Part shown: positions 3,069-56,799 of the stretch, one piece after another
Numbering within the stretch: the stretch's first letter is position 1
Layout: every line of letters begins with the position of its first letter
Origin: Haliotis asinina
Lineage: Eukaryota; Mollusca; Gastropoda; Lepetellida; Haliotidae
Length of the DNA stretch: 64,000 nt
Assembly (NCBI RefSeq): GCF_037392515.1
Contig: NC_090292.1
Location: 45,931,747-45,995,746 of the forward strand
Direction of reading: 5' to 3'
The notes under the pieces: generated by a model
The model's input: only the letters and a program-made list of their open reading frames with translations
Told to the model about the DNA's origin: nothing
Databases searched by the model: none
Position numbers and translations under genes: made by a program

Positions 3069-3081
3069 TATAAAACATAAA
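3069..3081. repeat. target-site duplication, left copy
   Basis: TATAAAACATAAA directly precedes the first base of the LINE at 3082 and recurs exactly at 9169-9181, immediately after its terminal ACTCACTCAC tail. A 13-bp duplication is typical of target-primed reverse transcription and fixes both element ends. Confidence 0.93.
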
Positions 3082-3139
3082 GGCATCCGTGGCGAGCCAC
3101 CTCCTCGTGGTGGGTGCTGGGTAACGCTAAGTGCTCGCC
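3082..3139 (+). ncRNA. HDV-like self-cleaving ribozyme at LINE 5' end
   Basis: The sequence folds by eye into the HDV double pseudoknot. P1 is GGCATCC (3082-3088) with GGGTGCT (3112-3118), including the G.U pair at the cleavage position. P2 is GGCGAGC (3091-3097) with GCTCGCC (3133-3139). P3 is ACC/GGT (3099-3101, 3109-3111) around the loop TCCTCGT. P1.1 is CC (3103-3104) with GG (3119-3120). The likely catalytic cytosine is C3127 in GCTAAG. P4 is essentially absent. Cleavage would occur just before 3082, which is exactly the element boundary set by the target-site duplication. Known family role: releasing the LINE 5' end from an upstream transcript and aiding translation. Confidence 0.85.
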
Positions 3140-3705
3140 AACCCCCCGTTGTGGACCCGGGGGCATATTTGGTCCACCAACCTGTTGGCCGTGGGTTGCG
3201 GCCCTGTGTCGGTGGAGGAGGGGATCCTGGTGGTTGAGGGCAATAGGGGCCTGCAACCGTGTTCCTGTTGCTCAACACACCACTTTGGCCCTGACTTCAC
3301 CTAGACGGGTGGTTGAATGGGCCCGGTTCAATCAATCGGCTGGTCACGCCAGGCCCTGTGCATAGTTAGTATTATTGCACACATCTATTTTTCTGGTCTT
3401 GGCTATTCTAAATTCAAATTATTCATGATATTGTTTTGCCTAGAGCACTATGCCAGAAGGCGGTGGCTCATGGGCCAATCTGGCATTACTGACCTCCAGG
3501 TTCTAATTGTCTTTAGAAATTGTCATGGATGGAACCAACCTGACATTTATTCTTTTTGACAGTATTGGCTACCTGTGTCTGTATTGCTTGAGTATAACAT
3601 CCCTGTAACCCTGGTGTTTCATCGTTGGTTTCCACTTTAACGCCGTCCTTGTTGACACTCCATGGTGGGTGGGGAGCAGGGATGTCGAATCTACGTCCAT
3701 TCATT

Positions 3706-4941
3706 ATGGCTTCCCAACAACTCTCTGGTTCTCGATCTAAATCCAAGAGAAAACATGTAGACCTAGAAACTGTCTCGTCTTCTGATGATGAATCAGAAAC
3801 AACAAATTTAGATTCTTGGCCCCGTTTCCTGGTTGTCCAGGGAATTGAAGGACAACCATTAAAACTGAACCCTTTTGCAATATCAAAAGCAATTGCAGGA
3901 ATATGCGGCGAAGTGAAAAACGTTACTCGGCTTAGAACAGGTTCCTTGCTGGTGGAATGTGCCAGAAAACAACAGGCTGTTAATTTGCTTAAAGCTCGTC
4001 AGTTTGCAAATACAAGGATTGATGTGTCACCACACAGAACGTTGAATTCGTGTAGAGGCATTGTTCGTGATCGGGCAAAATGTCTCTCTGACATGTCGGA
4101 AGTTGATATCGCAGCAGAACTTAAGTCTCAAGGTGTCACCTCTGTGAAAAGATTTACAAGAAAAGATGGCGATAACACTGTCAAAACAAACACGTATCTG
4201 TTGACGTTTTGTCTTGCTACAGTACCAAAATCAATTAAAGCTGGGTACTTTAATATTGAGGTAGAAGTCTACATCCCTAATCCACTCCGGTGCTTTAAAT
4301 GTCAGTTGTTCGGACACGGTGCTAACACGTGCAAAAACTCCCCAAAATGTTCTCGTTGTGGTGAGAAACATGAGAATGCCGACTGCACAAATGCCATCAA
4401 ATGTGCAAACTGTCATGGAGATCACATGTCCTCATCACGATCCTGTCCAGTCTTTGAACAACAAGCTCAAATGCTCAAACTTAAACATACCAATAATATA
4501 TCTTTTGCTGAGGCAAAGAAACTGTTACCAGTCACTGATAGAATCTCCACACAAAAAACTTACTCTGCTGTTGTATCTACCTCCCGTCCAAAAGTTGATC
4601 ACGAGTGCCAGACCTCCATTTCCTGGGTCTCAGAAAAACAGAACATTCTGTATGCAATTTCTGATGAGGATACAGGAACATCCACCCAGACAGACATGAT
4701 GCCTGAACCAAAAAATCACCATGAACCTGAAAGGAAAACAACAATGTCCAGAAAAGAACAGAAACAACTAAGACGAAAGGAAGCCAGGGCCCTTAAACAT
4801 ATTGAGGTGCCTTTACCATTACAAGTGCCTGTAGAGGTTCATAACACCTATGAACCACTAGATATGGAGACAAGCCCTTCACAGTCATCCCAGCATAAAG
4901 GGACTTCGTCTCGTTCACGCTCTCCTATTGAGCCCCCATGA
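3706..4941 (+). CDS. LINE ORF1, nucleic-acid-binding zinc-knuckle protein
   Basis: A 411-residue protein that would coat the LINE RNA. Three CCHC-type knuckles lie in a row, starting at Cys196 (CFKCQLFGHGANTC), Cys215 (CSRCGEKHENADC) and Cys233 (CANCHGDHMSSSRSC). The N-terminus is Ser/Lys-rich and acidic; the C-terminus is basic (RKEQKQLRRKEARALK) and ends in a Ser/Arg-rich tail. I chose the ATG at 3706 over the in-frame ATG at 3625 because the second LINE copy has its first ATG (47472) at the aligned place, after the same CATTCATTAT-type leader. The stop at 4939-4941 overlaps the ORF2 start as ATGA, which suggests termination-reinitiation. Confidence 0.88.
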   Translation: MASQQLSGSRSKSKRKHVDLETVSSSDDESETTNLDSWPRFLVVQGIEGQPLKLNPFAISKAIAGICGEVKNVTRLRTGSLLVECARKQQAVNLLKARQFANTRIDVSPHRTLNSCRGIVRDRAKCLSDMSEVDIAAELKSQGVTSVKRFTRKDGDNTVKTNTYLLTFCLATVPKSIKAGYFNIEVEVYIPNPLRCFKCQLFGHGANTCKNSPKCSRCGEKHENADCTNAIKCANCHGDHMSSSRSCPVFEQQAQMLKLKHTNNISFAEAKKLLPVTDRISTQKTYSAVVSTSRPKVDHECQTSISWVSEKQNILYAISDEDTGTSTQTDMMPEPKNHHEPERKTTMSRKEQKQLRRKEARALKHIEVPLPLQVPVEVHNTYEPLDMETSPSQSSQHKGTSSRSRSPIEPP

Positions 4942-7900
4942 GTTGCTCTCATAATGTTATCCAGTGGAATTGCAGAGGCCTTAGAAACAATTTTAATGAT
5001 CTTCAACTATTATCACAAGATTTGAAACCATCAGCTTTTAGTTTACAAGAGACGTACCTGAAAAGTACAGATAGATTTGACTTGCGCCAGTATAACTCAT
5101 TTCATTCATTTTCACCTCCAGGTGATAAAGCCACTGGTGGTGCTTCTATTTTGGTGAGGCAAGATGTTCTTCATAGCCCTGTTCCACTTAAAAGCAATCT
5201 TCAGGCTGTTGCTATACGGCTTTCTTTACAAATAACGTTCACGCTTTGTTCCCTGTACATTTCACCATCTTCAACTGTTCAGCCGTCTGATCTTCAGGAG
5301 CTATACGACCAACTTCCCAAACCCTGTATTATCATGGGTGATGTTAATGGACATAACCCTTTATGGGGAAGTACTAATACTAACAATAAAGGGAAAATAC
5401 TTGAAGACTTCATATCTAATAACAACGTATGCATATTTAATGATGGATCAGCTACTTATTTACATCCTGGTACAGGAACGTATTCTGCACTTGATTTGTC
5501 ACTCTCAGATCCCGATATATACAATGAGTTTGAATGGTCAGTCAATGATGACCTTTGTGGAAGTGACCATTTTCCAACAATTCTCACAGCTATAAATCCT
5601 ACTGATAACCCACCTGCAACTAGGTGGAATTTTAGTAAGGCCAACTGGCCATTATTTCGGACACGCTGCACTGAAAACTTGAATAATGATGTTTTTGTCA
5701 ATAGTCTGGATCCGATTCAGGTATTCTCTGATAAACTGAAGAATATAGCTAATGAAACTATACCTAAGTCCTCTGCAACCCCACACGTTCGTAAACCATG
5801 GTTTAATGATGAATGTAAACAGGCCAGAAAGAACAGGAAGAAGGCCGAGAAGTATTTTCGGCGACATCCTACAGTCCATAATTTAGACAAAGTTAAAATT
5901 CTAAATGCTAAGGCTCGACGCGCCTTCAAGCAGAATAAGCGTCAATCTTGGCGAAATTATGTTTCCAAGATAAATTCCCGCACACCAATTTCAAAAGTGT
6001 GGAATATGATTCAACGAATAAAGGGTAAAGGTTGCAAATCAACTGTCCACCATCTGAAGGATGGTGACGATGTATTGACAGACAGGCTTGATATTGCCAA
6101 TAAGATTGGTGTAACTCTCGCCAAACATTCGTCTTCATCAAATTACGTCCCTGAGTTTCAGAAATACCAGAAACAGCAGGAGAAGAAAAAGATCAATTTT
6201 AACTCAGACAATGGTGAAGACTATAATGAACTATTTTCATTACATGAACTATATACAGCCCTTGAGCAAGCTCATGATACAGCAACAGGTTCTGATTGTA
6301 TTCATTATCAACTTCTGAAACATTTACCTGAATCATGCCTGGAAACACTGCTAAATATATTTGACACGATATGGACAACAGGGACCTTCCCAGATTCATG
6401 GCGTAATGCCATTGTAGTTCCCATACCAAAACCTGGCAGGGATCATACTGATCCTTCGAATTACAGGCCAATCTCTTTAACGAGTTGTGTCTGTAAAACC
6501 ATGGAACGAATGGTAAATAGATTGACTTGGTATCTTGAAACCAATAATTTTATAACAAATATTCAATGTGGTTTCAGGAAAAATCGTAGTACCATTGACC
6601 ATTTGGTACGTCTTGAATCCTTTGTCAAAAACGCTTTAGTCAATAAACAACATGCAGTATCGATATTCTTTGATTTGGAGAAAGCATACGATACCACTTG
6701 GAAGCATGGTATTTTAAAGGATTTACATGACTTCGGTTTAAGGGGTCGTTTGCCTCTTTTTATCTCACAATTTTTAAAAGACAGGCAGTTTCAAGTCCGA
6801 GTGGGATCAACCCTGTCTGACCATTATAATCAGGATCAGGGTGTTCCACAAGGCAGCATTTTGTCTGTAACACTTTTTAGCATCAAGATAAACAGTTTAT
6901 CCAAGGTTTTAAATGATTCAATTGATGGATCATTATTTGTGGATGATTTTAATATTTCTTGTCGTGGTAAAAATATGCATACTATCGAACGGCAATTGCA
7001 ATTGTGTTTAAACAAAATAAATAAATGGTGTCTAGAAAATGGCTTTAAATTTTCTAAATCAAAAACTAATTGTATACACTTTTGTAGAGAATATAAGCCT
7101 CATAAGGACCCAGAACTATTTTTAAATGGTTCTCCCATCAAAGTTGTAAAGGAGGCCAAGTTCTTGGGTCTAATTTTCGATTCCCACTTAACCTTTTTGC
7201 CGCATATCAAATCACTAAAAACAAAATGCTTGAAGGCACTCGATGTATTAAAAGTGGTATCCAACTCAAAGTGGGGAGGAGATCAAGCAACTCTCCTACA
7301 TTTATACAGATCACTTGTCCGTTCAAAACTCGATTATGGCTCCATCGTATATGTTGGAGCTTGCAAAAGCAACCTTAAACTTCTTAATTCTGTCCATCAC
7401 CAGGGTCTAAGACTTTGTCTTGGGTCTTTTAGAACATCGCCTATCGACAGTCTCTACGCTGAGGCTGATGAACCATCTCTTGAGCAGCGCCGTATAAAAT
7501 TAACTTTACAGTACATTACCAAATTATACTCTAATGAATCTAACCCTGCATTTAATTCTGTCTTCAATCCCCTTTATGAAGATTTATACAACAAGAAATC
7601 TTCTCTGGTTCCACCTCTAGGGCATAGAGTGAAACCCTTTCTTTCTTCAGCTGGCATTCAGCTGGAAAACATAGCCCCCTCCCGTCTTCTTTCTTCTCCT
7701 CCTTGGCAGTTGGTTAGGCCACAAGTTGACCTAACATTAACTACATTTAAAAAATCAGAAACTAATGAATTACAATATAAACAGGAATATAATCAAATGA
7801 AGCATAAATATAGCAATTATACATCCTTATTTACAGATGGGTCCAAGGACGGTGGCGCAGTAGCTTGTGCCACTGTCATTGGATCCAGAACGATACCTTC

Positions 7901-8624
7901 TAGATTACCAGATAATAGTTCTATTTTTACAGCTGAAGCTAACGCCATATTAACAGCTCTTAAATATATTCGAAGACACCCTAAACATAAACAGTATATA
8001 ATCTACTCAGACTCCCTTTCTTGTCTTCAGGCGATTAAAACTATTTCTTGTAAACATCCACTTTTAATTGAAATTATTGAATTGTATAATGATCTTGCTA
8101 CTGGCCAATACGACATCGTCTTCTGTTGGTTACCCAGCCACGTGGGCATTTCTGGCAACACAATGGCCGATCTTGCTGCCAAGGCAGCACTCAACAAATC
8201 TGTGATACCACTCCATATTCCATACTCTGATTATAAAGCTGCAATTAGAGCGTATATCCGTGATCTGATGCAGAGGAAGTGGGACACCCAAGTGGGTATC
8301 AATAAATTACATGCAATAAAACCCTATATTGGTTATACCTACTTGGGTTGTCAGTCCAGGTTTGAAGAGGTCATCTTGCGACGATGTCGTATTGGCCATA
8401 CGAGATATACTCATAAATACTTATTGAAAGGTGAGGATCCTCCGTTCTGCATCCCTTGTGATGAAATAATCACGGTCAAGCATGTTTTGCTTGACTGTGT
8501 TGAATATTCCATCACAAGGGATAACTATTTTAAATCCCGAACTATGAAGGATCTTTTTAACAATAACAGTGGTCATTTAATTATTGCATTTTTAAAAGAA
8601 TTAGATTTGTTAAAAGAATTGTAA
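4938..8624 (+). CDS. LINE ORF2: endonuclease, reverse transcriptase, RNase H
   Basis: A 1,228-residue polyprotein. The apurinic-type endonuclease (about 1-215) keeps Asn11, Glu38 (LQETYL), Asp135/Asn137 (GDVNGHN) and Asp210-His211 (GSDHF). The reverse transcriptase (about 485-780) shows IPKPGRD, YRPISLTS, Asp579 in FFDLEKAYD, GVPQGSILS and the catalytic FVDD at Asp669/Asp670. RNase H1 (about 960-1085) has the DEDD set Asp967 (TDGSKDGG), Glu1000 (AEANAIL), Asp1025 (YSDSLSCLQA) and Asp1078 (NTMADLAA). A C-terminal CCHC motif uses Cys1171, Cys1174, His1182 and Cys1187. No key residue is missing. It nicks target DNA and copies the LINE RNA there. Confidence 0.95.
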   Translation: MSCSHNVIQWNCRGLRNNFNDLQLLSQDLKPSAFSLQETYLKSTDRFDLRQYNSFHSFSPPGDKATGGASILVRQDVLHSPVPLKSNLQAVAIRLSLQITFTLCSLYISPSSTVQPSDLQELYDQLPKPCIIMGDVNGHNPLWGSTNTNNKGKILEDFISNNNVCIFNDGSATYLHPGTGTYSALDLSLSDPDIYNEFEWSVNDDLCGSDHFPTILTAINPTDNPPATRWNFSKANWPLFRTRCTENLNNDVFVNSLDPIQVFSDKLKNIANETIPKSSATPHVRKPWFNDECKQARKNRKKAEKYFRRHPTVHNLDKVKILNAKARRAFKQNKRQSWRNYVSKINSRTPISKVWNMIQRIKGKGCKSTVHHLKDGDDVLTDRLDIANKIGVTLAKHSSSSNYVPEFQKYQKQQEKKKINFNSDNGEDYNELFSLHELYTALEQAHDTATGSDCIHYQLLKHLPESCLETLLNIFDTIWTTGTFPDSWRNAIVVPIPKPGRDHTDPSNYRPISLTSCVCKTMERMVNRLTWYLETNNFITNIQCGFRKNRSTIDHLVRLESFVKNALVNKQHAVSIFFDLEKAYDTTWKHGILKDLHDFGLRGRLPLFISQFLKDRQFQVRVGSTLSDHYNQDQGVPQGSILSVTLFSIKINSLSKVLNDSIDGSLFVDDFNISCRGKNMHTIERQLQLCLNKINKWCLENGFKFSKSKTNCIHFCREYKPHKDPELFLNGSPIKVVKEAKFLGLIFDSHLTFLPHIKSLKTKCLKALDVLKVVSNSKWGGDQATLLHLYRSLVRSKLDYGSIVYVGACKSNLKLLNSVHHQGLRLCLGSFRTSPIDSLYAEADEPSLEQRRIKLTLQYITKLYSNESNPAFNSVFNPLYEDLYNKKSSLVPPLGHRVKPFLSSAGIQLENIAPSRLLSSPPWQLVRPQVDLTLTTFKKSETNELQYKQEYNQMKHKYSNYTSLFTDGSKDGGAVACATVIGSRTIPSRLPDNSSIFTAEANAILTALKYIRRHPKHKQYIIYSDSLSCLQAIKTISCKHPLLIEIIELYNDLATGQYDIVFCWLPSHVGISGNTMADLAAKAALNKSVIPLHIPYSDYKAAIRAYIRDLMQRKWDTQVGINKLHAIKPYIGYTYLGCQSRFEEVILRRCRIGHTRYTHKYLLKGEDPPFCIPCDEIITVKHVLLDCVEYSITRDNYFKSRTMKDLFNNNSGHLIIAFLKELDLLKEL

Positions 8625-9168
8625 ATATATAAATATTTTATGATTGGAATTTTGAATTAGTAACTAAGATTGTTCGTGGCTGTATCCTCGAAGGGGGTTA
8701 AAGTACTGTAAAATTATTGTCCTCCTGAGAGGGTACGTAAGTCCACAAACGTTCAAAGTAAATTCAAACACTCCGCTCTTTTAATCGTAGTATATGTGTT
8801 CTTTTAAATCTATGGCTATATGTGCCTAAATTGCTAGCGACTGAGGGGATGGTGTAAATCCAGCTCGGGTCCATGCAGGTAGCAAAAGTAATGTAAGTCC
8901 CCATGGTCCCTTGTATGGTGATCTACCTTCAGTTGTTAGCAATCCATAGCCCATTTTTATATTGTCTTGTTCACTATAGTTAAACTGTTTTAGATCTAAT
9001 CACTAGTCTTAAATGTATATCTGTGATATATACTAGTGTTTTTACTGTTCGTTGTCAACAGGGTTTTATTTTCTTATATTCATTCATTCTACAATGTCAG
9101 TATTACTTGTTCTCGTCACGATATGGCTGCAAGATTGCCGATGTGACGATAAATATTAACTCACTCAC
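8625..9168 (+). other. LINE 3' UTR and ACTC tail
   Basis: A 544-nt non-coding tail. Pieces of it recur across the window in both orientations: 11024-11250, 13915-14215, 43555-43940, 55862-55925, 58589-59395 and 60430-61143. The last 48 bases, from ATATGGCTGC to ACTCACTCAC, resemble the 3' end of the local SINE family. The element ends in short ACTC repeats, not poly(A), as in several I-group LINEs that use simple repeats for priming. Confidence 0.85.
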
Positions 9169-9181
9169 TATAAAACATAAA
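9169..9181. repeat. target-site duplication, right copy
   Basis: Exact second copy of TATAAAACATAAA, directly after the LINE tail. Confidence 0.93.
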
Positions 9182-10005: not shown

Positions 10006-10365
10006 TCAGGACTTGGCAGTGAATATAGTCGGTACCACAGCAACAGTCTCCATAGTGCTGTCCAATACTTTCTTTTCTGCCAAGATACTGATATAGACTT
10101 TCCTGACAAGCAGCGGGATCACCATGGTAACTGCGATATACATCCAGTAAGGCACATGACGAGAGTTTGAGAATGGAGTCAGCCAGAACCCTCTGCGAGT
10201 TGCATCACGCAGGTGGTGGGAAAAGACTGCAGTTAAGAAGATGAGAGACATCATCTTCAAGTAGCGGACTTTCAGCACAATCCCCAGCACCCATAATGTT
10301 GCAGACACTACAGGGATGATGGTGGTCAGATGGAGAGGTGGGCGGTCAGGTAGATTCACTGCGGC
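10006..10365 (-). CDS. TMEM267: TMEM267 exon 2 (coding part)
   Basis: Codes residues 117-235 and the TGA stop. The acceptor is CTGTCCACAG|GCCGCAGTG at 10365/10366. Joining gives NIK-AAVNLPDRPPLH, which matches the family's continuous block. The first 50 or so bases of this exon, with the acceptor, are repeated upstream in tandem. Confidence 0.87.
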   Translation of the reverse strand, partial: AAVNLPDRPPLHLTTIIPVVSATLWVLGIVLKVRYLKMMSLIFLTAVFSHHLRDATRRGFWLTPFSNSRHVPYWMYIAVTMVIPLLVRKVYISILAEKKVLDSTMETVAVVPTIFTAKS

Positions 10366-13300
10366 CTGTGGACAGATCAAGTATATCAGAGTGTATGATA
10401 ATATGACAAGACACTGGGATGATGGTGGTCAGATGGTGGTCAGATGGAGAGGTGGGCGGTCAGGTAGATTCAATGCGGCCTGTGGACAGATCAAGTATAT
10501 CAGAGTGTATGATAATATGACAAGACACTGGGATGATGGTGGTCAGATGGTGGTCAGATGGAGAGGTGGGCGGTCAGGTAGATTCAATGCGGCCTGTGGA
10601 CAGATCAAGTATATCAGAGTGTATGATAATATGACAGGACACTGGGACGATGGTGGTCAGATGGAGATGTCGACTGTCAGGTAGACTCACCGCTGCCTGT
10701 GGACAGATAGAGTATATCAGAGTGTATGATAACACGACACAGACACTGGGGTGAGAGTGGTCAGATGCAGAGGTGGGCGGTCAGGTAGACTCACTGCTGC
10801 CTGTGAACAGACAATGTATATCAGCGTGTATGATAACATGCCACAGACAATGGGGTGATGGTGGTCAGATGGACAGGTCGGCAGTCAGGTAGACTCAATG
10901 CTGCCTGTGAACAGATTAAGTATACCAAAAATAAATATTCACCCCAAACCTTATTTCAAAACTAAGATGTGAAGCTGCAGAAATGTTAGGTTAAAATAAC
11001 TGGAAAGACCAATCCATATTTAGAGTGAGTGAGTGAGTTTATATTTTACGTCACATCGGCAATATCTCAGCCATATCGTGACGAGAACATTTAAATGAAA
11101 TATATGCACGTGGTAAAATCTGTCAACAAAGGACAGTAAAAAAACTAGCATATCACAATTTCAATTAAACCTAGCATGAAAAGTTAAAACTAATATCACT
11201 ATTTAGACAATACAATATAAAAACAGACTATAGATTGCAAACAACAGAACCATATTTTAGAGAAGGTTCATCTGGTGACTGATTATCATGTGTATATACA
11301 ATCAAAGGGAATATTGTAAAACAAAATAACTATTCCTATTCTGCTTTCACAACCTTATCAAACCTAGGTTTGAAGGTGACGGATGATCAACTTCTTTATT
11401 TTCACAACAGTGACGTTTCGGTATGGATTCTTATATATCATGCTTGAAAACAGTATAAGAATCCATACCGAAACGTCGCTACTGTGAAAATAAAGACGTT
11501 GATCATCCATAAAATTTGTTCCGTCACCTTCAGCTCAGCAACTTCTACATTGCCTCTAAAACAGTTCAAACCTAGGTTTGACTTGCCACAAATGACAATC
11601 ATATGACCACATGACTGTCATTTCTGATCTCCACTTTCCAAAAGAAGATAACCTTTTGGTGGAAACTTCAATGCCTGTTTTCTACAAATGCATACATTCT
11701 ATCCTGCTTAAATAAAAACATAATTTCATTAGCGGTTTTGTTTTTAAACTAAATCAAAATATCATGTTTTTTTCTGAAAGATTTCATTCGAGACAACCTG
11801 TATTGGTAAAATATATTGGATGGCGTTTCATTTTTGATTCAAAGTTTATATCAGTGTGGGTGATAACAGACACAAACACTGAATAGGACACGGTGGTCAG
11901 ATGGAGAGGTGGGCAGTCAGGTACATTCACTGCTGTCTGTGAACACATATATCAGAGGGTATGATGACGCCACATTGGCACTGGGATAATGACTGCTAGT
12001 TGGAAAGACATAGCACATATACATATATATATGGATAAAAAACAAGTGTGTTTACTTAGTTTTATGCCGCCCTCAGCTATATTCCAGGTATATGGCAGCA
12101 GTTTGTAAACAATCACATCTGGACCAAGCATTCCAGGGATGAACTTCATTAGGATTGATCTGCACAATTAGGAATTTGTCAACAAAGTCAGTGAGCCTAA
12201 CCACCAGATGCCAGATAGCTACAGAAATATAATGATAACTGACTGACAAACATGGATCTCATGTCAAGAAAATGTTATCATGTCTATAAAATCAGGAGAG
12301 CGAGTTAGGTCATCATGTTTATAAAGACAGGAGAGTGAGTTAGGTCATCAGGTATATGTAGTCAGGAGAGTGAGTTAGGTCATCAGGTATATGTAGTCAG
12401 GAGGGTGAGTTAAGTCATCAGGTATATGTAGTCAGGAGGGTGAGTTAAGTCATCAGGTATATGTAGTCAGGAGGGTGAGTTAAGTCATCAGGTATATGTA
12501 GTCAGGAGGGTGAGTTAGGTCATGAGGTATATGTAGTCAGGAGGGTGAGTTAGGTCATCAGGTATATGTAGTCAGGAGGGTGAGTTAGGTCATCAGGTAT
12601 ATGTAGTCAGGAGGGTGAGTTAAGTCATCAGGTATATGTAGTCAGGAGGGTGAGTTAAGTCATCAGGTATATGTAGTCAGGAGGGTGAGTTAAGTCATCA
12701 GGTATATGTAGTCAGGAGGGTGAGTTAAGTCATCAGGTATATGTAGTCAGGAGGGTGAGTTAAGTCATCAGGTATATGTAGTCAGGAGGGTGAGTTAAGT
12801 CATCAGGTATATGTAGTCAGGAGGGTGAGTTAGGTCATCAGGTATATGTAGTCAGGAGGGTGAGTTAAGTCATCAGGTATATGTAGTCAGGAGAGTGAGT
12901 TAGGTCATCAGGTATATGTAGTCAGGAGGGTGAGTTAAGTCATCAGGTATATGTAGTCAGGAGGGTGAGTTAGGTCATCAGGTATATGTAGTCAGGAGGG
13001 TGAGTTAAGTCATCAGGTATATGTAGTCAGGAGGGTGAGTTAAGTCATCAGGTATATGTAGTCAGGAGGGTGAGTTAGGTTATCATCATTATCATCATGG
13101 CCATACTTGTAAAACAGGACTTGAAATACTTCCTCTGGACTTTCACAACTGACTGCTGTGGAATGTAACTGGGTCTTAGGTTTTACACTGCTTTCAGCAA
13201 TATTCCAGGAATAGGGGACACCAGAAACAATTGGGGATTGTCAAAAGCCATATATTAGACATATAACTGTGCTAAGAAAGTTTATTGTGAAGAAAAACAT

Positions 13301-21754: not shown

Positions 21755-22629
21755 TCAATATCTGGTGTGTCCACCATGTTGGGCAACACATTCACGGCAC
21801 CTTGATGGCATGCTGTTAATCAATGTCCGGATGGTTGCCCGTGGTATTGCCCGCCATTCCTCTTGGAGAGCTGCACCAAGCTGGGCCAGGTTGGGTCCTG
21901 GGTCCCTGGCGTACACCCTTCGACCAAGAACGTCCCAGAGATGTTCAATTGGGGACAGGACTGGGGACTTAGAGGGCCAGTCCAATGTCTGGATACCTTC
22001 TTGTCGGAAATAAGCGGAGACAATTCGGGCCCGATGTGGTCTGGCATTATCATCTTGGAATACAACATTTCGGCCTATAACTCTAGCCAATGGAGCCACA
22101 ACAGGACGCAATATTTGGTCAACGTATCGCTGACCAGTCATGGCTCCGTTAATGATGACCAAATCTGATCGTCTGTCATGTGTAATCCCACCCCACACCA
22201 TGACAGTACCACCTCCATATCGATCATGGTCAAGAATTGCTGCTCTGGCATATCGCTCCCCGCTCCGACGCCAACAACGTTTTCTGCCATCTGTGAATCG
22301 TAGGCAAAACCTTGACTCATCAGAGAACATGGTGTAACGCCAGTGGCTCATAGCCCGTCCCTGATGCTGCCTAGCCCATGCCAATCTTTGGCGCGTATGG
22401 TGAGCTGAAAGGGTGACGCCCTTAAAGGCCGTCTTGCTTTCAGACGAGCTTGATAGAGTCGGTGTTTAACGGTTGAGGTTGAAATGCGTCTTCCAGTGAG
22501 TGTGCGGAATTCTCTATTGATGGCAGGGGCCGATTTAAACCTATCGCGTAGAGCAATTAGTGATTGCGACTTCTCCAGTACATTTACACGAGTTAACTTC
22601 TGTATGCCCGTGTAGCACGTGCTGGGCAT
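21755..22629 (-). pseudogene. Tc1-like (DD34E) transposase remnant
   Basis: The C-terminal two thirds (22384 down to 21755, stop after GGHTRY) keep the catalytic domain: FSDESRF (first Asp), VFQDDNARPHRAR (second Asp), then 34 residues to the Glu in SPVLSPIEHLWDVLGRR. The preceding part in another frame (22629-22420) supplies LTGRRISTSTVKHRLYQARL, the second helix-turn-helix, so one frame change near 22420 breaks the gene. The first helix-turn-helix is missing or unrecognisable. I could not define terminal inverted repeats. Confidence 0.88.
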
Positions 22630-46896: not shown

Positions 46897-46954
46897 GGCA
46901 CCCATGAAGAGCCACCTCCTCGTGGTGGGTGCTGGGTAACGCTAAGTGCTCTTC
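46897..46954 (+). ncRNA. HDV-like ribozyme of the second LINE copy
   Basis: The fold is as in the first copy. P1 is GGCACCC (46897-46903) with GGGTGCT (46927-46933). P2 is GAAGAGC (46906-46912) with GCTCTTC (46948-46954). P3 is ACC/GGT with loop TCCTCGT, P1.1 is CC with GG (46934-46935), and the core is GGGTAACGCTAAG. Two P2 base pairs differ from the first copy, G-C to A-T and C-G to A-T, each changed on both sides, and one P1 wobble is now C-G. The fold is intact even though the ORFs are dead. Confidence 0.83.
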
Positions 46955-47471
46955 TCCCGTGTGGACCCGTGGCAGAATGTGTCCACAGCACCCCATTGCT
47001 GGTCGTAAGAGGCGACTAAAATGGGCAACCTGTTTGCCGTCGGTTGGGCCCCTGTGTCGGTGGAGGAGGGGATCCTGGTGGCTGAGGGCATGGGAGCGAT
47101 GAATAGCGTTACTGTGCCCAACACGCCACTTTGGCCCTAACTTCACCTAGACGGGTGGTAGAATGGGCCCGATTCTATCAATGGTCACGCCGAGCCCTGT
47201 GGTATGTAATTTTGTTATATCTTGACTTGGTACCTTCATTCTGAATACTCAGAACGTTCATGAATTTGTTTTATGTTCTTGCCTAGAGCTTATTCCCAGA
47301 AGGCGGTGGCTCATGGGCCAATCTGGTTGATCCTTTGGATTAACTGGAGTATATCATTTCTGTAACCCTTTGGTGTCAGTTTGCTGGAACTCCGCTTACG
47401 CATGACATCGCCCTTGTAGGCGCTCCATGGTGGGCAGGGAACAGATTTGATGAACCATTCTACTATTCATT

Positions 47472-48700
47472 ATGAGTAAGCAAAATCCAAAAAAACCAAA
47501 ACGGCAACTTTCAGAATCTGATTCTGAGCTTGACTCTGATGAAGATGACGTTGTGACAAAATTGTTATATTCTGAGAGGGATACTTGGCCACGCTTTGTT
47601 GTGTCTTGTTTTGGAAGCAAAGGGTGAACGAACCCTTGCTTCCTATTCCCCATTTCTGTTAGAAAAGGGCCTACAAGGTAAAGCTGGTGAGTTGAAGCAT
47701 GTTTCCAAATTACGGTCAGGGGGTCTTCTGGTTGAATGTGTCAGGAAGTCACAGGCCATTAATCTCATGACGTCAACCAAACTAGCTGACATTCCAATTA
47801 CATGTTCAGCACACAAGACACTTAACTTTTCCAAAGGACTAATCCGTGACAGAGACCGAAGTCTCTCTGACATTTCTGTTGAAGACATTGTCTCTCAACT
47901 CTGAAGTCAAGGTGTCATTGAGGCAAAAAGATTCACATACCGTAAAGATGACCGTGTATTCCCGTCCAATACATATCTTTTGACTTTTGACAGCCCAATT
48001 CTGCCACCTTCTATTAAGGTTGGATGTTTCTCCATGAATATAGATCTCTTTATCCCACGCCCTGCTCGTTGTTTTAACTGTCAGAAGTTCGGCCATGGGC
48101 AAAATTCTGGTAGGAATAAGCTAGCTTGCTTTAGATGCGGAGAACCTGACCATGATGGGAAAACATGTACCAACACCATCAAGTGTTTAAATTGCAAAGG
48201 AGACCATATGGCATCTTCTAGAGACTGTCCTCTTTGGAAATATGAGGCCACTATGCAGAGCCAGACTTCTTGCACCTGTTTCAGAAAGTCCATCATATGC
48301 TTCAGTAGCTAAAAAGGTCACAGTGTCTATACCCTGTCAGACAGATCTTTCCTGGGTACATTCCGACCATCCCAAATCCCTTTCAGATCAATTACAAAAT
48401 ACCGTAAGTTCCAAACCGGTCACAGATCCATCACCGAAACAGAAAGGAACATCTTCTACACAGACAGACTCAAATCAAATCAAACCGTCCAAATCTACCA
48501 AAGTGGATACAAAGAAAAAACATATTCAGTCTGACAGATTGCCAAAAGCACTAAAAGATACAGTGCAATTTCATAATAAATATGGATTGTTCGAAGATAT
48601 GGATACTGAAGTATCCACCCATGTGAGCGCTGGTGGCCATTCAAATGGTCACTCACCCAAAAAGAAAGGTAGAGCAGTATCTCCTGTTACTGCTCCTTAG
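47472..48700 (+). pseudogene. ORF1 of the second LINE, broken
   Basis: It opens MSKQNPKKPKRQLSESDSEL at 47472. Homology to the intact ORF1 continues through LRSGGLLVECVRKSQAIN, CFRCGEPDHDGKTC and CLNCKGDHMASSRDC. A frame change lies near 47620, a TGA near 47902 stands where the intact copy has Lys, and another frame change lies near 48250. In the first knuckle the third Cys is replaced (GQNSGR for GANTCK). The tail at 48400-48700 ends in SPKKKGRAVSPVTAP. Confidence 0.85.
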
Positions 48701-48714
48701 ATACTTATCCCTCC

Positions 48715-51700
48715 ATGAGCCATTCAGCTAATCTAGTACAATGGAATTGCAGAGGACTTAAACATAACTTTCATGAAGTACAGTTGTTAGTCCAAGACCT
48801 TAAACCGTCAGCACCATGTCTCCAAGAGACGTATCTCAAACATACTGATACATTTGATTTAAGGCAGTACACTTGTTATCGCTCTTTTTCTCCTCCAGGG
48901 GATAAAGCCACTGGAGGTTCAACTATATTAGTAAGACGTAACATCATTCACAGCGATGTTCATTTGAATACCAATCTCCAAGCCGTAGCTATTCGCCTCA
49001 GCCTGCACATTGCGTTTACTCTGTGCTCTTTGTACATTCCACCTTCATCTGTTCTCCGACAAACTGATCTCCAAAATCTCTATGATCAGTTACCAAAGCC
49101 CTGTATCATCATGGGCGATTTGAACGGGCACAACCCTCTATGGAGAAGTACAAGCACAAACCATAAAGGTCAGATTATTGAGGATTTTATATTTGATAAT
49201 AGCTTGTGTGTTTTTAATGACGAATCAAACACCTATTTACATCCTGGAACAGGAACCTATTCAGCACTTGATCTGTCCCTCGTTGATACGAATGTTTACA
49301 ACGAATTTGACTGGTCTGTTCATGATGACCTTTGCGGAAGTGACCACTTCCCAACTGTCCTAAAAGCTATCAAACCCAATGATGATCCCACTTTATCATG
49401 GTGGAATTTTAATAAAGCCAATTGGCCTTTATATGAAATGCTGTGTATGGAAAAATTAATACCGGAAAACTTTATGAATGTATCAGATCCGATAGAGTTG
49501 TTTTCAGCAGAGTTAAATGAAATCGCTGACCAATCAATTCCTAAGTCCTCTGAAATTCCACACCTTCGTAAACCATGGTTCAACAATGAATGTAAACAAG
49601 CAAGAGAGTGTAGGAAGAAAGCAGAAAAATACTTTCGCAGACATCCTACCGTCCACAACTTAAATACTGTTAAAATTACGAGTGCCAAAGCACGACGAAC
49701 TTATAAACAAAACAAGCGCCAGTCTTGGAGGAAATATGTTTCCAACATTAATTCGCGCTCACCCATGTCTAAGGTGTGGAATATGGTCCAAGGAATAAAA
49801 GGCAAAGGTTCCAAATCCTCTGTTAAACATCTCAAAGAAGGTGATAAATTGATAACTGGTAAGGGTGACATTGCCAATAAAATTGGTGAAACTCTTTCCA
49901 GAAATTCATCATCATCAAATTATACACCTGAATTTCAGAAATATAAAAATCGACAAGAAAAACAAAGAATTAACTTTGACTCTAATAACGGTGAAGATTA
50001 TAATGAAGTATTTTCATTACATGAGCTACATACTGCTCTCGAGCAAGCTCATGATACTGCAGCTGGTAACAAGTGATACTGCAATGCCATTGTAATCCCC
50101 ATACCAGAGCCTGGCCGGGATCATACAGATCCATCAAATTACCGCCCTATATCGTTAACCAGTTGCGTTTGTAAAACCATGGAACGAATGGTAAACAATA
50201 GATTAGTCTGGTATTTGGAAACGAATAATCTTATCACAGATATTCAATGTGGTTTCCGGAAAAACCGAAGTACTACTGATCATTTAGTACGATTAGAATC
50301 CTATGGTAAGAATGCTATTGTAAATAAACAACACGTTGTATCAATTTTCTTCGATCTGGAGAAAGCATATGATACCACTTGGAAGTGTGGCATTTTAAAG
50401 GATTTATATGATTTCGGTTTGAGAGGTCATTTGCCTCATTTTATCTCACAATTTTTAAAAGACAGGCAATTTCAAGTCCGAGTGGGATCAACCCTGTCTG
50501 ACCATTATAATCAGGATCTGGGTGTTCCACAAGGCAGTGTTTTGTCTGTAACACTCTTTAGTATCAAGATTAACAGTTTATCTAAGGTTTTAAATGATTC
50601 AATCGATGGATCACTTTTTGTGGATGATTTTAATATTTCTTGTCGTGGAAAAAATATGCATACTATTGAACGGCTTTAAATTTTCTAAATCGAAAACCAA
50701 GTGTATACATTTCTGTAGAAAATACAAACCGCATAAAGATCCAGAATTGTTTTTAAATAACACTCCCATCAAAGTCGTTAAGGAGGCAAAGTTCTTGGGT
50801 TTGATTTTCGACTCACATTTAACGTTTCTCCCCCATATCAAATCTTTAAAAAATAATTGCCTGAAGGCGCTGGATTTATTAAAAGTAATTTCTAATTCAA
50901 AGTGGGGAGGTGATCAAGCTACCCTCCTACACTTATGTCGATCACTTGTCCGCTCAAAACTTGACTATGGTTCCATCATGTATGGTGGAGCCTGCAAAAG
51001 CAACCTGAAACTATTAGATTCTGTCCATCACAAAGGTCTAAGACTTTGTCTTGTGTCCTTCAGAACTTCACCTATCGACAGTCTCTACATTGAAGCAGAG
51101 GAACTATCTCTTACCCAAACGCTGTATAAAATTATCCTTACATATATATTACAAAGTTATGTTCTAACGAGTCTAATCCTGCATTTCACTGTGTCTTTAA
51201 TTCAACTTATGAAGATTTATATAACAAGAAATCATCTCTTGTTCCACCTCTTGGGCTGAGAATTAAGCCTTTCATTATTGCTGCCGGCATTCAGCTAGAT
51301 AATATAGCTCCTTCCCGTCTTCTTTCTTCTCCTCCTTGGCAGTTGGTTAGGCCACAAGTTGACTTAACGTTAACTACATTTAAAAAATCAGAAACGAATG
51401 AATTACAATATAAACAAGAATATCATCAATTGAAAAACAAATATAACAATTACAAATCCTTATTTACAGACGGATCCAAGGACGGTGGCGCAGTAGCTTG
51501 TGCCACGGTCATTGGATCCAGAACAATATCTTCTAGATTACCAGATAACAGCTCTATTTTTACTGCAGAAGCAAACGCCATATTAACAGCTCTCAGATAT
51601 ACTCAAAGACACCCTAAACATAAACAATACATAATTTTTGTCTGACTCTCTTTCGTGTCTTCAGGCTATTAAAAACCTATTGTGTAAACATCCACTTTTA

Positions 51701-52174
51701 GTTGAAATTGTTGAATTGTATAATTATCTTGCCACTGGTCAATACGACATCGTCTTCTGTTGGTTACCCAGCCATGTTGGGATCTCTGGTAACACTTTGG
51801 CTGACCTTGATGCTAAGGCAGCACTCAACAAATCTATGACACCACTTCTTATTCCCTATACTGATTATAAAGCTACCATTAGATCTTACATCCGTGATCT
51901 GATGCAGAAGAAGAGGGACACCCAAGTAGATATCAGTAAATTACATGAAATAAAACCATATGTTGGTTACACCTACTTGGGTTGTCAGTCCAGATTTGAA
52001 GAGGTCATTATACGGCGATGTCGTATTGGCCACACCAGGTATACGCATGAATATCTTTTGAAAGGTGAGGATCCTCCGTTCTGTATCCCTTGTGATGAGA
52101 TAGTCACGGTCAAGCATGTCTTCCATCACAAGGTACAATTATTTCAAGTCAAGAACTATGAAGGACCATTTTAG
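48715..52174 (+). pseudogene. ORF2 of the second LINE, broken
   Basis: The endonuclease part (48715-50076) is open, with VQWNCRGL, QETYL, GDLNGHN and GSDHF. Near 50070 about 120 bp that join the endonuclease to the RT are missing. The RT then runs YRPISLTS, FFDLEKAYD, GVPQGSVLS and FVDDF. A second deletion of about 60 bp follows HTIER at 50673. Later frame changes fall near 51100 and 51640. RNase H motifs TDGSKDGG and SDSLSCLQA survive, and the C-terminal CCHC lacks its last residues. Lengths elsewhere match the intact 1,228-residue protein. Confidence 0.88.
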
Positions 52175-52726
52175 TAACGTAAGTTCTCATTTAATTATTG
52201 CATTTTTAAAAGATTTGGATTTATTGACTGACATGTAAATAAATATTTTTTATGATTGGAAGTTGAATTAGTAACTGAGATTGTTAGTGGCTGTATCCCC
52301 GAGGGGGGTTGAAGTACCGTAAAATTATTGTCCTCCTGAGAGGGTACGTAAGTCCAAAAACATTTGAAGTCAAATTTAGTCTTCCATTTCTTTTTAGACG
52401 TAGTATTTCTGTCATTTTAATTTGTGGCTAATCTTGCATACAGTCGCCAGCAGCTGAGGGGATTTATAGAGAGAATCTCAGTGATGTTACTTGTTACTAT
52501 TGCCATATCTGCCTAAGCTTTGTAAGATACATCCATGTTTCCTCATTGTTCAGTGTTCTGAAAAATGTGTTATTGAGGTTATGCAATGACATCCCATGAA
52601 TCATATATTATGCTAATCTATGACCAAAAAATATTTTTTAAGGTTATGTACCATCTGCTAAGTCTATGTTCATCCAGGTGAGATAAAATAATATAAGATA
52701 AAAACATTACTTAAAAGATATGTTTC

Positions 52727-53056
52727 CTAATCTTTCAGTGTTATGAAAAATGTGTTACTGAGTTTTTGCATTGACATCCCATAAATCCTTTTTGCTGTGA
52801 TGCTCCAGTGTGGCTGTAGCATGTCCAGATTAGTCTCTGCCCCTGTTGCTCCTAAACCTCTAAGTTCTTGCACTGACCAGTCAATGAATTTCTCAGAATT
52901 TACATTCTTATGCAAGTTTGCAGATTTGAAGATGATCAGTGCATTGCTAAATGAAACTTCCTTCAGGTACAAAAATGTCTTTTTCGACCACTTACAACAC
53001 CTGTGGAGTGCCATGTAGTACTGCCACTGCTTGTCTGTCTGGTACACGCCTTCCAT
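52727..53056 (-). pseudogene. piggyBac-like transposase fragment
   Basis: The minus-strand reading MEGVYQTDKQWQYYMALHRC, CKWSKKTFLYLKEVSFSNAL and IIFKSANLHK resembles the piggyBac block that normally reads GVDLSDQ...YY...R..KKWW..LF....D....NA. Only this C-terminal piece is recognisable; no catalytic Asp block is present. The flanks show the 45440-type repeat words, so it lies in a repeat mosaic. Confidence 0.5.
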
Positions 53057-53343
53057 GTGCTGACTGTTGAGATGAATTGCCTTTTGTTTTTTTACCGCTC
53101 TGAAGTTGTTTTGGTGATTACTTAGATCTTCGTATTTGGTGAATGCTTGTCACAAAAGAGTTTACTTTTCTGAGATGCAAGAATTCATTGTCCTTGAATT
53201 CATTTATGCTGATCATCACAGCCTTGTGTTCCTTGACAGGCTGCAAAAGTCTTGTTGCCACTTTGTTCTTGGAATAGAGAAGAAGTGAAAAAGTCATTCA
53301 TCTTTTCTATGATGAGGCTTTCCATATCCAGAAGCAATGGCAT

Positions 53344-53698
53344 TTGCTATCCGGATCAGAAATGTGCCAGAAAGTGCTCAACTCACCCCACATTGCAGCC
53401 TACAGGAGAAATAAAACCCTGAAGGACCATCTAGTACAAGCATCACTAGAATACCCCAAAACTACGCCCAAGATCAGCGGCCGGTTAGTCACGTTCATCG
53501 ACAACAGAGACTGTTGCAATTCACTTCAATTCAGAAAAACATGGCAAATCAGATCTCACCTGTGAGATCGTCGCACAACTCAGAGAGGACCCTGAACTTT
53601 ATAGCGCCACCCAAAAGAGGAGATCACTCAAATTTAGGTGGATATTCAGACTCCACACGTTCAGCCCACAAGGCCTCAAGGACGAAATAGTTGGATAA
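53344..53698 (+). mobile_element. retroelement C-terminal fragment, Penelope-type
   Basis: SPHIAAYRRNKTLKDHLVQA, then after a gap KFRWIFRLHTFSPQGLKDEI, resembles the linker and the end of Penelope-like proteins, between which a GIY-YIG nuclease is expected. It is a broken, old fragment. Confidence 0.45.
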
Positions 53699-54249
53699 GC
53701 TATCCCCCTTGTCTTCCTCATTTATGACTCCAAAGAGGCCTAGCCCATTTTCCTCTTTTTTCACTCATTCTCATCCCTGTAGCTTTTAACCCTCTACATT
53801 CCAGTAGTATGTCACTTGACCAGCATGATTCATAAGACAGTTTCTTTGACAATCCCATCACTAACAAGATAGAAATGAAGGCCCTCATATTTGAGGTATA
53901 AACCAATTTCCAAATTAGCAGGTGAATGTACTTACATGTCCATCTTTTCAGTCATAAATTGTGCTTCAGACTTGGATTCAGTGACAAGTAATCAAACACG
54001 TCCTCATTGGAAAAAGAGTAAAGAGCAGTCTGCTCACTCCAATTTTCACCTGTATGTTTAGGCTCTTATTAAACACTAGCCATGGTGTTTCTCTCATCTG
54101 ACTGAAGGTCGCCAGTGTGAAAATTGTCAACTTCTTCCAAATCTGTTCTATCAAATATTAATATTTAGGGAAAAGCGAACTAAGAAGGTGAAGATGTTTA
54201 CAGATGATAGTTACATCATTCTCTTACTATTTGGCAGTTTCCGAAACAC

Positions 54250-54395
54250 AACTTGAAAACTATTGAAGATCTTTCAGCAAAACTTGGAAGATATTTGAGG
54301 CAAATGACAAAGTGGTTCCTTTTGCTATTTACAAAGTTTTGGCATTTTTATTTTTCCTGGTTTCCATGGAAACAATTCGGACTTAGTTTCAAAGT
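54250..54395 (-). repeat. dispersed copy of the 19560-20100 repeat unit
   Basis: The inverse of the unit at about 19718-19800: TTTGCTATTTACAAAGTTTT, GGCATTTTTATTTTTCC and AACAATTCGGACTTAGTTTC correspond to its GAGACTAAGTCCGAATTGTT and AAAAATAAAAATGCC blocks. Confidence 0.65.
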
Positions 54396-54404
54396 GTTTC
54401 ATGA

Positions 54405-54610
54405 CTATGCCTGTCTTAAGAGGCGACAAACAGGATTGGGCAATCAGCTTCAATGACTTGGTTGACGCATGTCATCAGTTCCCAATTGCGCAGATCGATG
54501 CTCATGCTGTTGATCACTGGAATGTCTGGTCCAGACTCGATTATTTACAGACCGCCAGGAATATTGTTGAGATTGGCCTAAAACTAGTCTCACTCACTCT
54601 CTCACTTAGG
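54405..54610 (+). mobile_element. SINE copy
   Basis: Well preserved in the middle: CTTAAGAGGCGACAAACAGG, GTTGACGCATGTCATCAGTT, CCCAATTGCGCAGATCGATG, GTTGATCACTGGAATGTCTG and CCAGACTCGATTATTTACAG. The tail is CCTAAAACTAGTCTCACTCA. Confidence 0.8.
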
Positions 54611-55255
54611 AATAATCACAACAAAAGTGAGAACTGGGATTCAGAAACTGGAAAAGGTATTGTTACTCTCACTGACACAGGAAGGTATCAGTTGGTTGAC
54701 ACAGAACATGCTCCATATGCATAGATCCATTCTTAAAGAATGGTAATTTTTCTCTGCTTGAAGCAGTAACACCAGCACCTTGAGAATATGCCAGTTGTGT
54801 GGATATGTGTGTTATGTGACCATAATAATCATAATAATAATAATAATTTATGAGGATCACCCGAACCCTCTCTGCTGCATTTTCATTCTAATCTGTAAAT
54901 AATAATTTATGCCAATTTTTCTTTCAAATTGAGCTAAATTGAATTGTCTAAAACCTTTGAATCCCCTGAACCCCCCCCCCCATTTGATGACCCAATAGTT
55001 TTCAGCTGAAAATAGATCTTCCTAGTGCAATTGCTGTGCTCATGATCTGGATCAGTGGATTGTGTGGTGCAAAGGTTAAGTTATTTAAGGTCTGCCACTA
55101 ATGGTAGGAGTGTTTCTACGTTAACAACAACAATATATATGGTATCTCCCACCCAGGCAGAGGAAGAAACATTACTTTTATGCTTTATGCGTTTGTGTAA
55201 ATAGCAGGAGCATCCATGAACAAGCATAAGATGGGAATTTTTCAACAATGATTGA

Positions 55256-55500
55256 GAAATGGTTTTACGTCGCTTTTAGCAATATTTCAGCATGGCAGAG
55301 GACACTAGGAATAGGCTACACACATTGTCCCTCAGAGGGATGACCCAACACCGGACCCCCTCTCTTTGATGAGTTGAGTGAGTAAAGTTCTAAGCCACTT
55401 TTGGCAATATTCTAGTGATATCATGGCAGGGGACACAGCAAACCTGCCTCAAGTGTGACAAGCAAACTCTAGATCTTATAACCACTAGGGCAGCATTTCT
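55256..55500 (-). mobile_element. two SINE tails of the second type, side by side
   Basis: Both 55256-55340 and 55375-55500 show, in reverse, a tail (GGTTTTACGTCGCTTTTAGC; AGTTCTAAGCCACTTTTGGC), then CAATATTTCAGCATGGCAGA or CAATATTCTAGTGATATCAT and GGGGACAC. This is the body of a tRNA-headed SINE such as the one at 60070, different from the 54405-type SINE except in its tail. Confidence 0.6.
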
Positions 55501-55654
55501 CCTTGGTGGGGTGGAGTGGGATGGTATCTGCTTGTGCTGATGAGATTTTAAGTTATAAGAAAACATCTCTAACTTTGTTAACCCTTTGTCTTTATCATCA
55601 CTTGTTAATTAATTTATGTATATATATCGCCTGTTCTCTCCCTGTATCATTTAC

Positions 55655-55925
55655 ACTTTGAAAACGATACAAGAACCTGTATCGAAACATCGTGTTCCAG
55701 TATTAAAGAAGTTGTCATCCATATACAGTTATCCTATCTCTAACTTCAATGGCAGTGAATGTTTTATCATTATAAACAGGCTGTAGACCCAGGTTTGATT
55801 CCCATTACTGGTGTCTCCTCCCCTCTTCTACTCCCCCCCCCCACTTCATTTCAGTATCAAAATGTTCTCGTCACGATATGGCTGAGATATTGTCGATGTG
55901 ACGTTAAATATTAACTCACTCACTC
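55655..55925 (+). mobile_element. retroposon tail motif and LINE tail fragment
   Basis: 55655-55730 holds GATACAAGAACCTGTATCGA then AACATCG and AAAGAAGTTGTCATCC, related to the foldback at 11371. 55862-55925 is the last 63 bp of the LINE (GTTCTCGTCACGATATGGCT to ACTCACTCACTC). A C-rich run lies at 55833-55843. Confidence 0.6.
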
Positions 55926-56799
55926 TACTCCCCCCACCCACCCCCAACACACACACACCTGGGGATCTGTATAATATACATATATATTACTAAGCCTGCT
56001 TTCATCATGTAATTTCTGCACTTGAATAACACCATTTTATGACAACCTGCTCTTACGTAAATATCTGTGATGTTCTATTAGAAGTAGTTACACTGTTCTG
56101 CAACAAGAGGTTTTTACATATGTAATGTTATTGATCTTGGATGTAGTGATTAATTGTCCTCATTACATTATGACTGAATTTTGCTGATGTGACTATAAAT
56201 ATTAGCTCACTAGCTCACATTCAGAGTTACTGTAAGTCATCTCGGGCTTCAATGGCCCTGAGTGTCTAATACTTACATCAATATTGTCATTACAGGTTGA
56301 ACAACAAACTATTGACTTGGCACTAAAAATAATCCACTCAAAGAGCATGATGGGTAGATTTACCCCACGTGTCATAAGCTGCGGAGCGTTAGGAAACAAG
56401 GATTTGACTGGGGGTAGATGTGTTCATAGACTGCACAGCAGGTAAGTGTTTGGGGTTAGGCACACATAGTAGAAAGGTCTTGTTTCCTACAGACGACCCA
56501 GTTCACTATAGCAGGTGACAGACCGACTGAATCCACAAGTGATGGGTCACTTATTTCACATGTGGCCTGCTATTTCAGGTTTAAGGAGAGCTATATGACA
56601 ATGCTGACTGTATCAGGTCTCATAGTCCCTCAACCGTCACTACTTACCTTTCTGCCCTCTACTTATTCACACTGTGAGATTATGTATTATTTAACCATCT
56701 TTTGTTGATATGTTTATGTTGAAAATGCAATCTTGATAATTATTATGTTTTAACTGCATAACATGATTAAGTCATGTGATTCAAGTTTCTCGCACCCAT
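55926..56799. other. unassigned stretch
   Basis: Nothing I can name apart from short CA and C-rich runs near 55925-55960. Confidence 0.5.

Follow-up and report, generated by a model that had tools for sequence, protein, structure and literature searches.

The predicted ribozyme at the start of the LINE

What sets the 5' end of a LINE that lies in the 64-kb window (the whole stretch of DNA analysed, 64,000 nucleotides) and begins at position 3082, directly after a 13-nt target-site duplication (TSD)? An earlier note had placed an HDV-like ribozyme on that same boundary, at 3082-3139; its coordinates and sequence were right, and the assignment is now supported by many copies instead of a single one. 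The evidence for a selected HDV-like ribozyme, as judged from sequence, is strong, and we consider it very probable that the first 58 nt of the element encode a P4-less, self-cleaving member of this class (catalysis being predicted) that sets the 5' end of the RNA.

In the first copy the 58 nt run, in order, P1 (GGCATCC), J1/2 (GT), P2 (GGCGAGC), a single C, P3 (ACC), L3 (TCCTCGT), P3' (GGT), P1' (GGGTGCT), P1.1 (GG), five bases (GTAAC), J4/2 (GCTAAGT) and P2' (GCTCGCC). The nested double pseudoknot in HDV order (P1, P2, P3 and P1.1), on which membership of the class depends, is complete at 3082-3139. Its parts are as follows.

3082-3139, + strand: predicted HDV-like ribozyme, predicted cleavage at 3081/3082, from the fold, Rfam alignment, covariation and a descriptor scan
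3082-3088, + strand: P1 5' strand, partner 3112-3118; helix 92.7% paired across 70 distinct 58-mers
3091-3097, + strand: P2 5' strand, partner 3133-3139; helix 86.1% paired, with both-sided changes at 4 of its 7 pairs
3099-3111, + strand: P3 (ACC/GGT) with a 7-nt L3, containing CCTCCTCGTGG
3112-3118, + strand: P1 3' strand, read from the sequence
3119-3120, + strand: P1.1 3' strand, pairing with C3103-C3104; 99.3% of cells paired, mostly forced by the search patterns
3121-3125, + strand: GTAAC, 5 nt at the P4 position, read from the sequence
3126-3132, + strand: J4/2, with the catalytic-C position at 3127
3133-3139, + strand: P2 3' strand, from sequence and covariation

P1 comprises seven pairs, among them the wobbles G1.U37 and, in window copy 1, U5.G33; P2 comprises seven Watson-Crick pairs, and P1.1 joins C3103 to G3120 and C3104 to G3119. 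For P3 we prefer the reading ACC/GGT at 3099-3101/3109-3111, which gives the 7-nt L3; this register was taken from the Rfam alignment and is one base off a CAC/GTG reading. A P4 helix is optional within the HDV-like class, and only the five bases GTAAC stand in its place, as expected from the absence of P4 claimed earlier. C3127, within GCTAAG, occupies the position of the catalytic C, in J4/2 after P1.1/P4.

The host LINE and a diverged relative

The ribozyme heads an element that its TSD marks as full length, and a second, diverged LINE in the window begins in the same way.

3069-3081, + strand: 5' TSD copy, TATAAAACATAAA, 13 nt, a perfect match to 9169-9181
3082-9168, + strand: LINE copy 1, full-length by its TSD, with a 3' tail of CTCAC units
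3625-4941, + strand: ORF1, 438 aa from the first TTG, with zinc-knuckle-like cysteine motifs seen by eye
4938-8624, + strand: ORF2, 1228 aa, with endonuclease, reverse transcriptase and RNase H (Pfam domains)
9169-9181, + strand: 3' TSD copy, a perfect match to 3069-3081
46897-46954, + strand: second predicted HDV-like ribozyme, heading the diverged LINE copy, with compensatory P2 changes

LINEs of the I group are defined by an ORF1 together with an ORF2 that carries an APE-like endonuclease, reverse transcriptase and RNase H, and reverse transcriptase phylogeny recognises the clades I, Nimb, Ingi and Loa among them. Copy 1 has this constitution, with the zinc knuckles of its ORF1 recognised by eye only; a Pfam search of ORF1 at 0.001 matched no family. 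Across sampled molluscs the I-superfamily clades named in PMC10294476 are Nimb and Ingi, plus one unknown.

The two window ribozymes differ at 6 of 58 positions, four of which make up two compensated P2 pairs; the remaining two are a U.G in place of a C-G in P1 and one base in J1/2. Elsewhere the two LINEs match at 78% over 5' UTR bases 97-402 and at 72-82% over ORF2, and no alignment was obtained between their ORF1 regions. The diverged copy (46897-55940) has broken ORFs, and its ribozyme is separated by 9 kb from a 3'-end-like motif near 55909, so that it may carry insertions; a TSD was sought for it and none was found.

Conservation in the 5' UTR extends to another segment, 3452-3484, whose core GGCGGTGGCTCA is exact in 58 of the 79 rows that are long enough and which is predicted to form small hairpins that differ between forms. 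The segment 11019-11249 holds inverted repeats of 8928-8970, 9028-9066 and 9103-9169, which suggests that a 5'-truncated element of this LINE lineage left its 3' end there in the opposite orientation, about 2 kb downstream.

Descriptor, Rfam and folding tests

On both strands of the window an HDV descriptor matched at 3082 and 46897 only. Among random sequences with the same dinucleotide make-up, the strict form matched in none of 100 and the loose form gave a mean of 0.03 matches in 60, with a descriptor that was composed after the sequence was known and is not blind.

Rfam models represent particular members of the HDV-like class and do not define it. At the gathering score, an Rfam scan of the window returned no match. 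In a permissive scan of 358 nt, HDV-F-prausnitzii matched from 3082 with an E-value of 0.034 and 22.8 bits, where the gathering cut-off is 44, and HDV_ribozyme scored 21.7 bits (E 0.49), also below gathering; this result agrees in direction with a ribozyme and supports the assignment without deciding it.

The nested minimum-energy fold differs from the ribozyme and is no more stable than shuffles (z -0.87). At -22.5 kcal/mol this competing, non-ribozyme fold is about equal to P1 plus P3 (-10.2) and P2 (-12.9) taken together, pseudoknot terms excluded. Nested thermodynamic folding of a single copy cannot represent a pseudoknot, and we set it aside as a test.

Covariation and conservation among copies

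The fold is accompanied by covariation in P2. In a gap-free alignment of 70 distinct 58-mers, standard pairs filled 92.1% of the cells, against 37.0-47.4% with slid partners; the covariation score was 0.172, a value that none of 500 shuffles reached (they gave 0.095), and both partners had changed in 71 cells, where shuffles gave 28.4. Two other counts, pairs changed on both sides (reached in 234 of 500 shuffles) and further pair types (112 of 500), showed no excess over shuffles. The both-sided changes fall at P2 pairs 11-57, 12-56, 13-55 and 14-54, and P2 takes three main forms, GGCGAGC/GCTCGCC, GAAGAGC/GCTCTTC and GAACGGC/GCCGTTC; covariation events are few because the covariation rests on these three subfamilies. 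The third form was found by requiring a non-T at one 3' position beside the fixed core, which gave 41 places, of which 40 were fetched. Among the 36 rows kept from this search, GAACGGC was present in 13, GCCGTTC in 14 and both in 9, with all seven P2 pairs formed in 12.

In P1 the variation is mainly from C-G to U.G, plus decay. Little weight attaches to the invariance of P3, L3 and most of columns 17-50, which the search patterns or the anchor held constant. When the middle base of the P3 3' strand was altered in the pattern and all other core bases were kept, no match was obtained, and the P3 changes actually observed, at loci that fail the anchor, are uncompensated. These anchor-failing loci are among 13 ribozyme loci that gave no row: nine duplicate rows already kept (L029-L031, L036, L037, L045, L048, L050 and L128), and four are without the anchor CCTCCTCGTGG (L059, L115, L119 and L127, with L119 and L127 the same). 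All four of the latter have the catalytic C and GG at G1.

Conservation of the catalytic C, which the earlier note placed in GCTAAG, is best read from the loci of two similarity searches that did not require this base, though they return the most similar copies and their loci include neighbouring copies: of the 38 rows so obtained, all 38 have C at the catalytic position, 37 have G at G1 and 34 form all 19 pairs. Across all 118 rows, 69 form all 19 pairs and 49 have at least one non-standard pair, as expected because dead copies and three variant-seeking searches are included.

Genomic copies and the 5' boundary

The genome searched was a 1.14-Gb assembly, in which the exact ribozyme core has 1,214 matches (617 forward and 597 reverse) and the reversed core pattern, used as a control, has none. 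A 3'-end pattern gave 2,300 + 2,242 matches, the exact core being about one-quarter as frequent as the exact 3' end. Viral contigs scanned for the core gave no match; records from the window's own genome may be absent among them.

G1 is the 5' end of many independent insertions. When a copy-1 query starting 32 bases upstream was used, the match began at G1 or one base earlier in 32 of 39 non-self matches and 2-13 bases before G1 in the remaining 7, among the best 40 of 3,650 candidates; with a query from the second LINE, for which the best 40 of 2,222 candidates were scored, the match began 0-5 bases before G1 in 39 of 39 scored non-self matches. The upstream flanks are unrelated (115 distinct 30-mers among 118 rows), and GG stands at G1 in 107 of the 118 sampled non-duplicate rows, with G1 placed by a fixed distance from the anchor. 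The best copy-1 matches are 99-100% alike across the 5' end.

TSDs were sought in 14 copies of the same subfamily, namely the window copy and the 13 best non-self copy-1 matches, by matching each 5' flank against the place where the 3' end was expected. Clear TSDs of 11-14 nt were present in 9 of the 14, flush with G1 in eight of these nine and with one extra base in the other, so that the predicted cleavage site coincides with the element's 5' end in 8 of the 9 copies where a clear TSD allows the comparison. One copy (L140) shows no more than a 7-nt repeat, flush and accompanied by the right 3' tail, and a recognisable 3' end and TSD were absent in 4 of the 13 fetched 3' regions (L132, L133, L135 and L136). 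The LINE boundary that had been put at the predicted cut 3081/3082, from the TSD at 3069-3081/9169-9181, is thus borne out by flush TSDs and match starts in other copies.

Several copies have unusual arrangements. An internally deleted LINE copy (L020, 1486-2230) keeps the ribozyme and the 3' sequence, and resembles R2 SIDEs in plan. A search for its derivatives was weak, since the 5' side was represented in the query by just its final ~7-12 bases, and only L020 itself matched the whole query; no short derivative family was seen, none of the 78 rows that extend 1,000 bases or more downstream having an exact form of the 3' terminus. Three ribozyme-bearing copies (L005, 957 bp apart; L083, 480 bp apart; and L046) start within another copy's 5' region, an arrangement suggestive of self-insertion by the LINE.

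Proposed mechanism and alternatives

We propose that, when the element is transcribed from a promoter upstream of the LINE, the RNA would fold and cut just before G1, shedding the leader and yielding a LINE RNA that starts at a 5'-OH G1. Target-primed reverse transcription would then copy this RNA to its end, and therefore each full-length new copy would begin at G1 with a complete ribozyme. By analogy with proposals for other LINE ribozymes, an extra role in translation initiation is possible.

Uniform 5' ends could also be obtained from an internal promoter that starts transcription at G1, the fold being incidental, and trypanosome L1Tc offers in Pr77 a sequence described as both promoter and ribozyme (PMC4035085). 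A DNA promoter, however, leaves unexplained both the compensatory exchange in P2 and the presence of an HDV-type double pseudoknot exactly at the boundary, and as the whole explanation we find it decidedly improbable; an internal promoter could nevertheless coexist with the ribozyme, as in Pr77. It is also unlikely, to much the same degree, that the pseudoknot has been retained in non-catalytic form for protein binding or translation. The protein of a LINE can bind structured RNA at the 5' end of its element, as in R2, but such a role does not sit well with the C found at the catalytic position in every similarity-search row (a base those searches did not demand, in the most similar copies), with L3 and J4/2 letters that match known ribozyme families, or with a cleavage site that is the element end in many copies.

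Chance complementarity within a GC-rich 5' UTR would fit a nested fold no stabler than shuffles, yet it deserves hardly any credence given the absence of strict-descriptor matches in the 100 random sequences and the identical architecture at both window LINE starts; the check run against it found compensatory P2 changes and a matching boundary in other copies. The reading that we retain is a self-cleaving HDV-like ribozyme, predicted to set the RNA 5' end.

Comparison with known ribozymes

Published systems are compared here as described in the papers cited. HDV-like ribozymes are established at the 5' ends of the LINEs R2, R4, Dong, Baggins, L1Tc and RTE (PMC3774820), and the abalone Haliotis discus is on record as having one with 5 nt instead of P4 (Webb & Luptak 2011, cited in PMC3774820). 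The novelty that the earlier note had hoped for therefore holds for the host, which is newly identified, and not for LINE ribozymes or an abalone HDV-like ribozyme as such: what is new is the host element, a gastropod LINE of high copy number that encodes endonuclease, reverse transcriptase and RNase H. In the literature searched, outside which most subscription papers lie, we found no HDV-like ribozyme tied to a mollusc LINE, which does not prove absence. That the ribozyme at 3082 is the H. discus one is plausible, not proven, because both have five bases at P4, come from gastropods and belong to the same class; the two are likened by published description. An orphan abalone ribozyme may thereby gain a home, in a young, high-copy LINE.

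The R2 ribozyme likewise has an HDV-type fold at a LINE 5' end (PMC3774820, PMC5035012), and in silkmoth R2 it can be without P4. Its most conserved sequence, quoted as CCTCCTCGTGG (PMC5035012), matches the 3082 ribozyme letter for letter (CCUCCUCGUGG); active-site letters converge among HDV-like ribozymes (PMC3774820), and this identity therefore does not show descent. R2 differs in inserting into 28S rDNA, with cleavage often upstream of the element end, whereas the abalone LINE has dispersed insertions. In Drosophila R2, fewer than 40% of 5' junctions are canonical (PMC3774820). The abalone LINE junctions (8 of 9 flush, a small sample) look tidier.

L1Tc/ingi is a LINE of the I group. Its Pr77 is also an HDV-like ribozyme at a LINE 5' end, in trypanosomatids and doubling as a promoter (PMC4035085), a likeness drawn by description. 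The ribozymes of Baggins, R4, Dong and RTE cleave non-LTR elements at their 5' junctions (PMC3774820), as is predicted for the present one. These are other LINE families, likened here by description. Minimal HDV-like ribozymes of gut phages, or theta ribozymes, are also without a P4 stem. They share the minimal class with the ribozyme at 3082 and differ in adjoining phage tRNAs, not retrotransposons (PMC10879173).

The ribozyme at 3082 would be a natural P4-less form, and the TSDs and compensatory P2 changes of one genome point to a ribozyme that defines the element's 5' end. The near-identical copies (99-100%) make 5'-end formation and junction joining testable outside insects. Rather speculatively, the copies might represent a gastropod LINE radiation built on a constitutive P4-less HDV-like ribozyme, its core kept and its P2 rewritten at least twice, in which new copies joined for the most part exactly at G1, with no added bases, in contrast to Drosophila R2, would point to a different finishing of the 5' end after processing; we think this somewhat less likely to hold than to fail.

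Other features of the window

The genome has 16 matches to a molluscan haemocyanin domain (PF14830), all on one contig and eight to each of two clusters, and 14 control genomes have none; the best solved relative is 3j32, a Haliotis structure. Exons resembling sperm lysin (PF01303) have six matches in the genome and likewise none in the 14 control genomes, the best PDB match being 3lyn, sperm lysin (E 3.9e-11). Both finds support the molluscan origin assumed in the earlier note, and the lysin-like exons, taken by themselves, point to a vetigastropod, perhaps an abalone or a trochoid. About six units in tandem, at spacings of 103-114 nt, occupy 10302-10975, and a further related unit lies near 11873. 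What looks like a miniature inverted-repeat element lies at 11358-11581, where a 55-nt inverted repeat (93% complementary, with an 18-nt spacer, 11381-11508) stands between two copies of TCAAACCTAGGTTTGA. On the - strand at 21755-22384, a 209-aa ORF resembles by eye a transposase of the Tc1/mariner type.
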